Under the pieces are notes generated by a model. It was not told the origin of the DNA. It saw only the letters and a list, made by a program, of their open reading frames with translations, and did no database searches. Source: Cyanobium sp. CZS25K (GTDB lineage Bacteria; Cyanobacteriota; Cyanobacteriia; PCC-6307; Cyanobiaceae). Taken from it: a stretch of DNA of 64,000 nucleotides. The position numbers and the translations under genes were made by a program. The DNA is taken from positions 1 to 64,000 of the forward strand of contig JAUCZB010000016.1 in the NCBI GenBank assembly GCA_030373325.1, given 5' to 3'. This document shows, in pieces, positions 50,012-54,816 of this stretch (its first letter is position 1; each line of letters opens with the position of its first letter).

Positions 50012-51427
50012 TCAGATCAGCCGCGATCCGGAGGCTGCCCGGCGCTGGGCGGGATCAAACACCGCCGCCACGGTGCGAATCAGCCAGCGGCCTGAGGCGG
50101 TCACCTCCACCACGCCCAGGCCATCGGCCTCGCTGAGCCGCACCAGGCCATCCTCCGCCAGGGCCTTCAGATCGGTCCATTCGCAGGCGAAGCGCTCCGG
50201 ATCGATCGCCACCCGGAAATGGCACATCACCTCCCTGATCAGCTCCCGCCGCTCCAGCACCTCTGGATCGGTGACCACCAGCCCCCGCTCCACCGGCAGC
50301 TGGCCGGCGGCGATGCGGGCCGTGTAGGCCTTCAGATCCCGCAGGTTCTGGCTGAACAGCCCGGGGAACTGGCTGATCGCCGTGGGGCCCACCCCCAGCA
50401 GCTCCAGCTCGCCGCCGGTGGTGTAGCCCTGGAAGTTGCGGTGCAGGCGTCCCTGGCGGGCCGCGACGGCCAGGCTGTCGCCGGAGAGGGCGTAGTGATC
50501 CATGCCGATGGCGTCGTAGCCACAGCCGCCCAGGCGGGCGGCGGCCCGCTCCAGCATCTGCAGCCGCTGCCGCTGGGAGGGCAGATCCTGCGGCGCGATC
50601 TTGCGCTGCAGGGGCAGCTGCTCCGGCAGATAGGCGAAGGAGAACAGGGACACCCGATCGGGGCGCAGGTCCTGCACCAGGGCCAGGGTGGCCTCGAAAC
50701 GCTCCGGCGTCTGGAGCGGCAGACCGCAGATCAGATCGACGTTGACGCTGGCGAAGCCCGCCTCCCGCATCCAGGCCATGGCCCGGCGCAGCTGATCCAC
50801 CGGCACCACCCGGTTGACCGCCTGCTGAACCTGGGGGTCGGCATCCTGAATGCCGAAGCTGATCCGGGAGAAGCCCAGGCGGCGCAGGGCGACGACGTCC
50901 TCCCGGCTGAGGGCCTCCGGATTCACCTCGATGGAGGCCTCCAGGTCGTCCTCCAGATCAAAGTGACGCTCGATCAACCTCCAGAGGCTCTCGCGCTCGG
51001 GGATCGTCAGGTAGTTGGGGGTGCCCCCGCCCCAGTGGAGCTGGGCGAGGCGCCGCCGCTGGGCGGAGCGGCGCGAAATCAGCTCCAGTTCGGCGGCCAG
51101 GGCCTCCAGGTAGGGAACCACCACCTTCGAACCGGCGCCGGTGGTGATGCGGTTGCAGCCGCAGAACCAGCAGGCGTTGCGGCAGAAGGGCACATGCACG
51201 TAGAGCGACAGCGGCTCCTCCGTGGGGCGGGCCAGCTGGGTCTCGAGGTCGGCTGCCGTGACACCGCCGTGAAAGGTCGCGGCCGTGGGGTAGCTCGTGT
51301 AACGGGGTACGGGCCGGTCGTGCTTGAGCAGCAGATCGATCGTGGTGGCTGGGAGCGATGAAGCGCTGGGCGCAGAAACGGTGGGCGATGAAGCGGTGGG
51401 CGATGAAGCGGTGGCCGCTGGGGTCAT
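50012..51427 (-). CDS. hemN: Oxygen-independent coproporphyrinogen III oxidase
   Basis: A 471-residue radical SAM enzyme. The cluster motif CRNACWFCGC (C-x3-C-x2-C), the start PRYTSYPTA and LHWGGGTPNYL are typical of HemN. It oxidises coproporphyrinogen III to protoporphyrinogen IX without oxygen. It lies 53 bases after the heme oxygenase gene, as in the known low-oxygen cluster (acsF2, ho2, hemN) of other cyanobacteria. The first 25 residues are Ala/Ser/Thr-rich and encoded by a short tandem DNA repeat. Confidence 0.92.
   Translation of the reverse strand: MTPAATASSPTASSPTVSAPSASSLPATTIDLLLKHDRPVPRYTSYPTAATFHGGVTAADLETQLARPTEEPLSLYVHVPFCRNACWFCGCNRITTGAGSKVVVPYLEALAAELELISRRSAQRRRLAQLHWGGGTPNYLTIPERESLWRLIERHFDLEDDLEASIEVNPEALSREDVVALRRLGFSRISFGIQDADPQVQQAVNRVVPVDQLRRAMAWMREAGFASVNVDLICGLPLQTPERFEATLALVQDLRPDRVSLFSFAYLPEQLPLQRKIAPQDLPSQRQRLQMLERAAARLGGCGYDAIGMDHYALSGDSLAVAARQGRLHRNFQGYTTGGELELLGVGPTAISQFPGLFSQNLRDLKAYTARIAAGQLPVERGLVVTDPEVLERRELIREVMCHFRVAIDPERFACEWTDLKALAEDGLVRLSEADGLGVVEVTASGRWLIRTVAAVFDPAQRRAASGSRLI
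51380..51416. repeat. 15-bp tandem repeat in the hemN N-terminal region
   Basis: GGTGGGCGATGAAGC occurs twice in a row, with a partial third copy and a degenerate earlier copy. Read on the minus strand it gives the repeated peptide TASSP. The length is a multiple of three, so copy-number change would not break the gene. Confidence 0.85.
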
Positions 51428-51480: not shown

Positions 51481-52197
51481 TCAGCGCCTGGACGGGACGG
51501 CCTCCACTGACGTCCCCAGATCGGCCAGCTCCGCCAGCAACCGCTGGGTGTCGAGGAACGCAACCACCGATTCGTCCAGCAGCTCCGCCTCTTCGACTGC
51601 GCTGAGGTCGAGCTGCTCGAAGGCCTCGTGCAGCGCCTGCTTCAGCGCGGAGATGGGACGCTGGAACTGCCAGAAGCGCAGACTGGGCAGGCCCTGTCTC
51701 GCAAGGATCGCATTGGCCTGCTCGGCCAGCTGCTGCCCGCCGGAGAGGTCGCCGCCATAGCGCACATAGACGTGAGCCATGAAGCGGTGCGGAGCCTGCC
51801 GGACCAGGCCCTGCAGCTCCGCCATCCAGTCACGGGCCGCGGCGGAGGCCGGCGTGGCCGGGATGGCGCCCAGCATGGCGATGTCCTGCTGCAGGGCCTG
51901 GCTGCGGGCCAGGTCGGCCCAGGGAAAGGCGTCCGCCCCCAGGGCGGACGCCAGCGCGGGGCCGTGCTCCTCGATCAGGGCGTAGGCGGGAGCCAGGGCA
52001 CGGATCAGGGCCGCCAGCTGGAGGGGACTGGCCTCGCCCGCCAGCAGGGCCCGGGAGAAGGTCATGCCTTCGGCCTGGTGATGGGCGGCACCGATGCGGG
52101 CGTGGAGCCGACGCACCCGGGGGCCGAAACCCTTGCGCGCGGCGACATCGGCAGGTCTGGCGTGGTCGGAGATGGCGGCAGGGATGGCGGTGGTCAT
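51481..52197 (-). CDS. ho2: Heme oxygenase (biliverdin-forming)
   Basis: A 238-residue all-helical heme oxygenase. The proximal His is in IGAAHHQAEGMTF. The distal-helix Gly motif is in VYVRYGGDLSGGQQLAEQ, close to the usual YLGDLSGGQ. It opens heme to biliverdin, the precursor of phycobilins. ATG 52197 is preferred to 52242 because the latter would put the palindrome at 52248-52257 only six bases before the start. It precedes hemN in one operon. Confidence 0.9.
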   Translation of the reverse strand: MTTAIPAAISDHARPADVAARKGFGPRVRRLHARIGAAHHQAEGMTFSRALLAGEASPLQLAALIRALAPAYALIEEHGPALASALGADAFPWADLARSQALQQDIAMLGAIPATPASAAARDWMAELQGLVRQAPHRFMAHVYVRYGGDLSGGQQLAEQANAILARQGLPSLRFWQFQRPISALKQALHEAFEQLDLSAVEEAELLDESVVAFLDTQRLLAELADLGTSVEAVPSRR

Positions 52198-52247
52198 GGG
52201 GAACGAGGCCGTGGAGGGAACGGGCCCGGAAGGGGCGCTCATGGATA

Positions 52248-52257: not shown

Positions 52258-52389
52258 CTACTGTTTTCCCATGCTTCTGTGGAAACAATTTCGTTGCAAC
52301 CCTCCCACCGCCCTTGTCCCCCCCCTCCCCGGTCACCCTCCCCTGCGACGCCGTCGAGCACCGCTCCGCTGCGCTCCCTGTCCATCCTG

Positions 52390-52650
52390 GTGGCCCCCCT
52401 GGGCCAGCTCAGCGCGGAAGGCCAGCTGCGTGAACTGATCGAGGAGCGTCGCCAGCGCCAAGGGGCTGACGGGGAGCTCTGGCACCTGGGGCCGGAGGAG
52501 CGCACCGAAGCGATCGTGGCTGGTGATGCGGCGGTGATCACCGGCTTACAGGTGCGCTTCGGGAGGTGCGCTGGAACACTCGCCCTTGAGCTCACGTGGC
52601 TGCGGCAGCGGGCGATGGGCAGCCCTGCCCAGGCAGGGGCGGGTCAGTAA
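52390..52650 (+). CDS. Predicted 86-residue protein of unknown function
   Basis: A frame from GTG 52390 encoding LVAPLGQLSAEGQLRELIEERRQR, then GELWHLGPEERTEAIVAGDAAVITGL. It is helical and natural in composition, unlike the opposite-strand frame. The start codon is uncertain and no family is known to me. It faces the decayed ADO-like gene tail-to-tail. Confidence 0.45.
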   Translation: MAPLGQLSAEGQLRELIEERRQRQGADGELWHLGPEERTEAIVAGDAAVITGLQVRFGRCAGTLALELTWLRQRAMGSPAQAGAGQ

Positions 52651-52663
52651 GAGGCGAGATCCT

Positions 52664-53345
52664 TCAGCGCAAGGGCACCAGCTCCGCCGCCTTCCCCGCC
52701 AGTCGCGTCACCAGCCGACGGGCCTGGCGCGGCTCAAAGCCGACCCTCTCGGTCGCCTCCTGGAAACAGCCCACGAATTCCCCCACCAGTGCGACCGGAT
52801 CGATGCCGATCGCCTTCAGGTCGCTGCGGGCGGCCTGGAGGATGGCGAGCACGGTCGGCAGGGCACGCTCGCAGCAGGCGGCCATCGGGGCCGCCACTTC
52901 GGGGTACCAGGCCGCCAGCCAGCGTTCGCCGTAGTCGAGGTGTTCGGCCTCATCGGCCAGCACCGCCTGGATGATCGGCTCGGCGTAGGCATCGGCCACC
53001 GGCATGTAGCAGAGGTAGGCCGCCACTGCGAAGCTCTCCACGATCAGGCACTGGATCACCAGGGCGCTGACCCTATCCCCCGGCGCACCGCCTCGCGGAA
53101 GAGGTGATGCAGTGGAGCAAACAGCCGGCGGGCCAGCTGCAGATCCGGACAGATCCCCAGCTGCGTGCCGCAACCCGCAGCAGGTCTTCCCCGTCCTCCG
53201 GCAGGAGGCCGGCCAGCAGGCGGAAGTGGCTGTCCGCCAGCCCTTCCCCCACGACCACCAGGGCGTTGATGCGGCTGTAGGCGTCGCGGTAGGCGGGGCT
53301 CAGGCCGCCTCCGCCCGCACCATCGGCTGCCAGAACTGTCGCCAA
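52664..53345 (-). pseudogene. Decayed aldehyde-deformylating-oxygenase-like (ADO) gene
   Basis: The pieces, in three frames, match a cyanobacterial ADO in order. Part one is AYSRINALVVVGEG to LPEDGEDLLRVAAR. Part two, in another frame, is LGICPDLQLARRLFAPLHHLFREAV. Part three is DRVSALVIQCLIVESFAVAAY to DEAEHLDYGERW and the C-terminal helices. A one-base loss in a G run near 53080 breaks the frame. A deletion of about 43 bases near 53163 removes the segment that in ADO carries the E-x-x-H iron ligands. The remaining ligands are intact. The gene starts within the end of acsF and probably shared its transcript. Confidence 0.8.
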
Positions 53346-54364
53346 AGCAGCCCGCCGAAGCGCAGCTTCAGACCCAGCTGGCGCAAGGGACCGGCCCCCT
53401 GCCGGCGGGCGGCGCCCATCTCCTGGAAGCAGGCCACCAGGCGATTGCGCAGCGCGATGAAGCCGCTGTTCTCCAGATCGAACACCCAGGGGAAGGCGCG
53501 GCGCGCCGTGCGGTTGGTCTGCCGCATCACCTCCGCATCGAAGGCCTCCGGATCCATGCCCAGGATCAGGTAGAAGTCACCCCGCTCACACACCGTGAGG
53601 CTGTGGGTGAGAAACACCGACCAGAGAAAGAAGCGACTCAGCAACTTGCCCCGAAACCCCTGCCGCAGGGACGGCCAGCAGCGGATCAGCATGTTGAAGA
53701 TGTCGCCATGGCGGTTTTCGTCCTGGCACCAGGGCTCGAAAAAATCGAACAGCGGCGCAAAGTTGTTGTCGGGGTGGGCCTTGAGATGGCGATCAATCAG
53801 GATGTAGCGCCAGTAGCCGATCTTTTCCGACAGGAAGACGCTGTACAGCACCCAGCTGAGGGGAAACCAGGTGATCGGCCGCTTGGTGCTCAGGCTGGGC
53901 AGATCGATTTCGATGCCTTCGGCCACCAGCGCCCGGTTGAGAAAACCGGCATGCCGGGCCTCATCGCGGGCCATGAGCTGGAAAAGTTTGCCGAGCTCGG
54001 GACGGCTGGCCTGCATCAGCCGACGGGACAGTTCCTTGAAGAGCAGGAATCCGGAAAACTCCGACACACAGGAGCGCACCAGGTAACTCTCGTAGGCCTC
54101 CTTCTCCTGTGGATTGAGATCCCTGAGGCGATCCAGTGGTGCCTTGCGATCGAAATGCTCCCGGTTGTAGTCCGCCTCCATTTCGGAGAGCATCGCCTCG
54201 AACACGGGGCGCTGCTGCTCCAGGTCCGTGCGGGCCGCCTTGGCGATCTGGGTCGTGTAGAACCGCGGCGTCAGCAGATCTTCGCGCAGGTGCGGAGCCG
54301 CCGGGGCGGCCCCAGCAGAGCTTCCAGCAGGGCCCGCAACACCAGAGGAGAGGGTGGCAGTCAT
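53300..54364 (-). CDS. acsF: Mg-protoporphyrin IX monomethyl ester oxidative cyclase
   Basis: A 354-residue diiron cyclase that forms the fifth ring of chlorophyll. Iron motifs E-x-x-H are in LMARDEARHAGFLNRAL and WCQDENRHGDIFNML, and the N-terminal core LLTPRFYTTQ is typical. The neighbourhood with heme oxygenase and hemN marks it as the low-oxygen isoform (ChlAII/AcsF2 type). It is divergent from the ArsR-like regulator and followed by the ADO-like pseudogene, which it overlaps by about 45 bases. Confidence 0.92.
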   Translation of the reverse strand: MTATLSSGVAGPAGSSAGAAPAAPHLREDLLTPRFYTTQIAKAARTDLEQQRPVFEAMLSEMEADYNREHFDRKAPLDRLRDLNPQEKEAYESYLVRSCVSEFSGFLLFKELSRRLMQASRPELGKLFQLMARDEARHAGFLNRALVAEGIEIDLPSLSTKRPITWFPLSWVLYSVFLSEKIGYWRYILIDRHLKAHPDNNFAPLFDFFEPWCQDENRHGDIFNMLIRCWPSLRQGFRGKLLSRFFLWSVFLTHSLTVCERGDFYLILGMDPEAFDAEVMRQTNRTARRAFPWVFDLENSGFIALRNRLVACFQEMGAARRQGAGPLRQLGLKLRFGGLLWRQFWQPMVRAEAA

Positions 54365-54395: not shown

Positions 54396-54510
54396 ACAGC
54401 GTGATACTACATGATCCGGTTTCCACGGAAAGCCGTTTTCACGATTCTGCATGAATGGGCTGCGACGGAAACGTGGTAGCATTCCGTCCTCCTGGGCTTT
54501 GCTGAGGTCG

Positions 54511-54816
54511 ATGGAATCTCTGGCCGACTACTTCAAAGTGTTCTCCGAGCCCAACCGGCTGACGGTGCTCGAGACCCTGCGCCCGGGCCCCCTGAACGTC
54601 ACGGCCGTCGTCGAGAAGACCGGCCTCAGCCAGGCGCTCGTGTCCAAGCATCTCAAGCTGCTGACGATCGCCGGCGTGGTGCGCCGCCGTCCCGAAGGCA
54701 GCCTGGTGTTCTATGAAGTGATTGACAAGAGCGTCTTCCAGCTCCTGGTTCAGGCCCGGAAGCTCATGCTCGCCTCCCGCCGTCAGCAACTCGATGCCCT
54801 CGCGGCCATCCTCTGA
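54511..54816 (+). CDS. ArsR-family winged-helix regulator without cysteines
   Basis: A 101-residue ArsR-type repressor. Helices FSEPNRLTVLETL and the recognition helix TGLSQALVSKHLKLL are followed by the wing VVRRRPEGSLVFYEV. It contains no cysteine at all and lacks the metal-sensing ELCVCDL motif, so it cannot sense metals or thiols in the usual way. Divergent placement suggests that it controls the acsF transcript. In other cyanobacteria this cluster is governed by ChlR, a MarR-type activator. Confidence 0.85.
   Translation: MESLADYFKVFSEPNRLTVLETLRPGPLNVTAVVEKTGLSQALVSKHLKLLTIAGVVRRRPEGSLVFYEVIDKSVFQLLVQARKLMLASRRQQLDALAAIL

Follow-up and report, generated by a model that had tools for sequence, protein, structure and literature searches.

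A decayed copy of a putative low-oxygen ADO isozyme in the tetrapyrrole gene cluster of Cyanobium sp. CZS25K

The window, a stretch of 64,000 nucleotides from the freshwater cyanobacterium Cyanobium sp. CZS25K (contig JAUCZB010000016.1), harbors a broken gene of the cyanobacterial aldehyde-deformylating oxygenase (ADO) family inside a low-oxygen tetrapyrrole cluster. It is likely to be an ADO2 gene that was inactivated recently; ADO2 is a separate clade of the family, and its members would serve as low-oxygen isozymes, dispensable and repeatedly lost. Such a role is the most likely one in view of the genetic linkage, the metal ligands, the predicted fold and the title of one PDB entry. ADO requires O2 and converts long-chain fatty aldehydes into alkanes and formate; the role of alkanes in cyanobacterial physiology is not settled.

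The pseudogene extends over positions 52664..53303 of the minus strand, as delimited by PF11266 matches in three frames and by intact orthologues at the matching position in relatives. A first-pass annotation, made from the sequence alone, had rebuilt an ADO-like protein from three frames within 52664-53345; the reconstruction holds, and the terminal stretch (53304-53345) is part of the neighboring gene, AcsF2. The N-terminal piece (53166..53300) covers PF11266 positions 4-48 (E 3.9e-7) and includes the first Glu ligand (E25, numbered as in the intact ADO2 of locus L035). The middle piece lies in a different frame (53080..53175; PF11266 positions 59-90, E 0.024), and the C-terminal piece in a third (52664..53080), where PF11266 positions 91-214 are matched at 53080-52709 (E 2.5e-27) and the ligands equivalent to E108, E137, and H140 are retained. 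Pieces of the gene reach 98.4 and 33.4 bits against PF11266, above the gathering cut-off of 28 bits, and the three-frame match is far beyond chance. No other ferritin-like family, an assignment that the first-pass annotation had allowed for, scores comparably; the best competitor, DUF455, reaches only E 0.07 and was rejected.

The lesions are defined by DNA alignment of the window copy to five intact orthologues. A 40-bp deletion, slightly shorter than the 43 or so bases first estimated, has its junction at 53175..53176 on the minus strand and is flanked by short GCGGC repeats. It removes the E53-x-x-H56 ligand segment (around MEGRHARDF), which corresponds to E60 and H63 in ADO numbering, so that the loss of the first E-x-x-H segment, as stated in the first-pass annotation, is borne out. 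One further base is missing at about 53082..53083 (minus strand). This loss had been placed within a run of G, but it lies beside that run, whose length equals that in the relative L037. A third defect, overlooked in the first-pass annotation, is the start site (53301..53303, minus strand), which has CTG in place of the ATG that overlaps the AcsF2 stop codon in L037. With these lesions, the window copy cannot give rise to a working ADO in its present form. The intact orthologues at the equivalent position in relatives are 71-82% identical to it (about 46-82% over intact ADO2 orthologues overall), compared with ~36% for normal ADO. In the C-terminal piece, dN/dS against orthologues is 0.25-0.48, vs. 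0.13-0.42 between intact copies, a rise that is at most slight and therefore says little about the date of the loss beyond "recent"; relaxed selection was set aside as a dating tool for this reason. The loss is probably recent, since the lesions are unlike others seen and the remaining sequence is little relaxed.

The genes around the pseudogene place it in a low-oxygen cluster, as first proposed. AcsF2 (53300..54364, minus strand; TIGR02029 and NF010172 above cut-off) is an intact second copy of the oxidative Mg-protoporphyrin monomethyl ester cyclase, 45% identical to AcsF1 elsewhere in the genome. HO2 (51481..52242, minus strand; PF01126) is an intact second heme oxygenase, 29% identical to the only other one in the genome, and HemN (50012..51427, minus strand; TIGR00538 above cut-off) is an intact oxygen-independent coproporphyrinogen III oxidase. 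The combination that characterizes low-oxygen tetrapyrrole clusters, namely a second-copy AcsF together with a second heme oxygenase and HemN, is thus present in the window. A cysteine-free ArsR/SmtB-type regulator (54451..54816, plus strand; NF033788 above cut-off) is divergent from AcsF2. Between ADO2 and HO2 lies a small ORF on the opposite strand (52336..52650, plus strand; start not fixed), recognized by its conservation among relatives; it is ~100-140 aa long, the window copy is without an internal stretch, and no Pfam match was obtained in the one relative tested. Because this ORF is conserved and runs in the opposite direction, what had been called an operon probably comprises two transcripts: from the gene arrangement, the AcsF2 transcript probably ends with ADO2, and HO2-HemN probably form the second. 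The description as a cluster stands, and a single simple operon is doubtful.

Elsewhere in the same genome, the normal ADO is intact (contig C9, 84711-85364; 391 bits) and is directly followed by an acyl-ACP reductase (C9, 85457-86464). No alkane pathway is therefore being lost, only the broken gene described in the first-pass annotation. The accompanying remark that ADO normally pairs with acyl-ACP reductase and not with acsF, ho, or hemN is true of the cell's ordinary ADO. For ADO2, however, the location is not odd, as the whole clade sits there and was found in no other place. ADO2 genes do not share the family trait of pairing with acyl-ACP reductase, and no second acyl-ACP reductase that might act as an ADO2 partner was found, each genome having a single one.

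Many related genomes, in which the first-pass annotation had proposed a search, do carry an intact ADO-like gene in the interval from AcsF2 to HO2. All 56 distinct ADO2 loci examined lie in the AcsF2/HO2/HemN cluster. AcsF2 is visible in 49 of them and either AcsF2 or HO2 directly in 52; the remaining four are short pieces, for which longer records of the same genomes show AcsF2 or HO2. The usual order is the ArsR-type regulator (on the opposite strand), AcsF2, ADO2, HO2, and HemN. The divergent regulator is strongly conserved across Cyanobiaceae and without cysteine in nearly all relatives, and the small opposite-strand ORF is kept in most loci. Optional genes include a weakly hemerythrin-like ORF before AcsF2 and, between AcsF2 and ADO2, sometimes a fatty-acid desaturase, which is often the neighbor of ADO2, and sometimes a GT8-like gene. 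Some lineages carry inserts between ADO2 and HO2 (a gene of the malate/lactate dehydrogenase type, a paralogue of CysK, a histidine kinase and response regulators). In L097 and L099 the ADO2-GT8 pair is inverted, yet still within the cluster. The hemerythrin-like ORF immediately precedes AcsF2 in many clusters (e.g., L051:3226-3642, L045:3209-3697, L094:6006-6362) and was not seen in the window. Downstream of ADO2, some Cyanobium genomes have a second cysteine-synthase-like gene (L036:6525-7478, L041:6513-7478, L065:8214-9179). The same cyanobacterial cluster also occurs in a record labelled as a Bifidobacterium breve MAG (L053, CALPNT020000022.1), which is mislabelled or contaminated.

Phylogenetically, ADO2 stands apart within the cyanobacterial ADO family: a maximum-likelihood tree built from 80 proteins separates it from normal ADO (ADO1), with 100/100 support for each clade. 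Among 386 genomes scanned across the phylum, scores at the ADO2 level (over 240 bits) occur only in Cyanobiaceae; second ADO copies in two other genomes, G427 and G510, were considered as ADO2 outside this family and rejected, as they fall in the ADO1 clade. Normal ADO coexists with ADO2 in the genomes seen, and the two are 37-43% identical within one genome. Between genera, identity is 55-59% for ADO2 vs. 75-77% for ADO1, and by this comparison the more variable ADO2 evolves faster than ADO.

The intact ADO2 proteins keep the features expected of a dimetal enzyme of this family. The six metal ligands are invariant (E25, E53, H56, E108, E137, and H140 in L035, corresponding to E32, E60, H63, E115, E144, and H147 of ADO), as are Q110, Y122, and D143. 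Among the substitutions peculiar to the clade are F86 to L, E30 to V, E34 to L, and N38 to H, and some of these probably lie near the active site or channel. The AlphaFold2 model of the L035 protein (pLDDT 95) has only ADOs as its top structure matches, with an rmsd of 0.6 Å to 5UX2 and mostly 0.8-1.3 Å to normal ADOs, so that intact ADO2 is predicted to have the ADO fold. Against PF11266, intact ADO2 proteins score 205-218 bits, well above the 28-bit gathering cut-off. Against TIGR04059 they score 207-220 bits, just under the equivalog cut-off of 222.65, whereas the normal ADO from the same genome as the window reaches 398 bits. By these curated criteria ADO2 is not called ADO proper; having passed the Pfam cut-off and missed the equivalog cut-off, it belongs to the ADO family as a sister group of the curated equivalog. 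One member of the clade has a crystal structure: the PDB entry 5UX2, entitled "Protein 19 with aldehyde deformylating oxidase activity from Synechococcus," matches the ADO2 encoded by genome G181 (locus L091) without a difference over a stretch of 219 residues, and this ADO2 gene sits in the order ArsR, AcsF2, GT8, ADO2, HO2, HemN. No paper behind this entry was found, and the activity claim rests on the PDB title.

ADO2 thus resembles cyanobacterial ADO (PF11266, TIGR04059; PDB 2OC5, 4RC5, 4Z5S, 6JZU) in fold and in its six metal ligands, at 37-43% sequence identity, but differs in forming a separate clade below the equivalog cut-off and in being encoded in the AcsF2/HO2/HemN cluster rather than beside acyl-ACP reductase; the window copy is, in addition, broken. 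The protein of 5UX2 is 57% identical to L035 ADO2 and comes from the same kind of cluster, and is intact, unlike the window pseudogene. The closest known cluster is that of Synechococcus sp. PCC 7002, where ChlR controls chlR-acsFII-ho2-hemN-desF and DesF, a low-oxygen desaturase, is required for growth under micro-oxic conditions (PMC4500134). The core low-oxygen genes are the same, and both clusters include a lipid-modifying, O2-dependent isozyme. In contrast, ADO2 is present in the cluster described here, and the regulator is a cysteine-free protein of the ArsR/SmtB type rather than a MarR-type [4Fe-4S] ChlR; no divergent MarR-type ChlR with the conserved [4Fe-4S] cysteines occurs in the window, and the ArsR/SmtB-type regulator occupies its place. 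The fatty-acid desaturase between AcsF2 and ADO2 (L047, L051, L059, L093, L095, L101) is a possible DesF counterpart, its position being unlike that in Synechococcus 7002. Two ADO homologues have been reported in Cyanobium gracile PCC 6307, Synechococcus CB0101, RS9917, and two others (Coates et al., 2014, PMC3903477), in a passage that itself mentions neither clade, gene neighborhood, nor a low-oxygen link for the second homologues. Second ADO homologues are therefore already known, and what appears to be new is their link to the low-oxygen cluster, for which no paper on ADO or a second ADO homologue was found in the part of the open-access literature that was covered.

The breaks in the window copy might be sequencing or assembly errors, the gene being intact in the living strain. 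The assembly is indeed a draft (34 contigs, 88.5% complete), and one of the lesions affects a single base next to a run of G. However, the 40-bp loss and the start-codon change are atypical for base-call errors, and AcsF2, HO2, HemN, the ArsR regulator, and other neighbors are all full length, which makes a generally poor assembly an unlikely cause. Furthermore, the same gene has decayed with different lesions in other strains. The dN/dS of the C-terminal piece, raised slightly at most, also fits a very recent loss, and taken together an artifact is highly improbable.

With the gene accepted as broken, ADO2 might still be a redundant second ADO of the ordinary kind, not specially linked to low oxygen, its position frozen by chance. 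The activity named in the 5UX2 title, the normal ADO alongside it and its repeated loss, which shows it to be dispensable, would all fit. This explanation is nevertheless unlikely given that every one of the 56 loci lies in the cluster, across many genera and despite inserted or rearranged neighbors (including the inversions in L097 and L099), and that ADO2 evolves faster than ADO1 and separately from it. Alternatively, ADO2 could be a dimetal oxygenase with a changed substrate or task, such as another aldehyde or an oxygen consumption that protects the cluster enzymes. The clade-specific substitutions, the scores just under the equivalog cut-off and neighbors that handle tetrapyrroles, lipids, and sugars speak for such a change; the conservation of all ligands and of Q110, Y122, and D143, a model backbone nearly identical to that of ADO and the aldehyde deformylating oxidase activity of the 5UX2 title speak against it, and we regard it as quite unlikely.

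The preferred reading, a low-oxygen isozyme of ADO, would work as follows. ADO2 would be made when oxygen is scarce, the ordinary acyl-ACP reductase would supply it with fatty aldehydes, and with O2 and an ADO-like dimetal centre it would convert these into alkanes and formate. It would thereby take the place of the normal ADO, just as AcsF2, HO2, and DesF take that of their aerobic counterparts. Counting against the isozyme are the sub-cut-off TIGR04059 scores, the clade-specific changes, the faster evolution and the lack of a second acyl-ACP reductase. A wider proposal, to which we give somewhat less than an even chance, is that Cyanobiaceae have a dedicated low-oxygen dimetal aldehyde oxygenase, standard in the micro-oxic cluster and altered relative to normal ADO in its affinity for oxygen, its substrate, or its partner, such that hydrocarbon or aldehyde metabolism would be a regulated part of the low-oxygen response. 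The tie to the low-oxygen pigment cluster in every locus examined predicts a need for hydrocarbons or for aldehyde removal when O2 is scarce, met by a dedicated enzyme. Should ADO2 prove to work at lower O2, it would also be of practical use in producing alkanes.

The window copy is one of several losses. Different large internal deletions affect ADO2 in G113 and G005, the gene is broken or truncated in L046, L060, and L108 as well, and G132, G243, G254, G258, G267, and G271 have the cluster but no ADO2. Some of these are draft metagenome assemblies, in which single frameshifts may be errors; the sequences as a whole indicate that ADO2 has been broken several times independently. Its dispensability and repeated loss may be explained by the normal ADO that remains and by micro-oxic exposure that differs between lineages, and the strains without it are natural knockouts for comparison. 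The reverse of the window case also occurs, as L044/L075 and L105 have a broken AcsF2 beside an intact ADO2.
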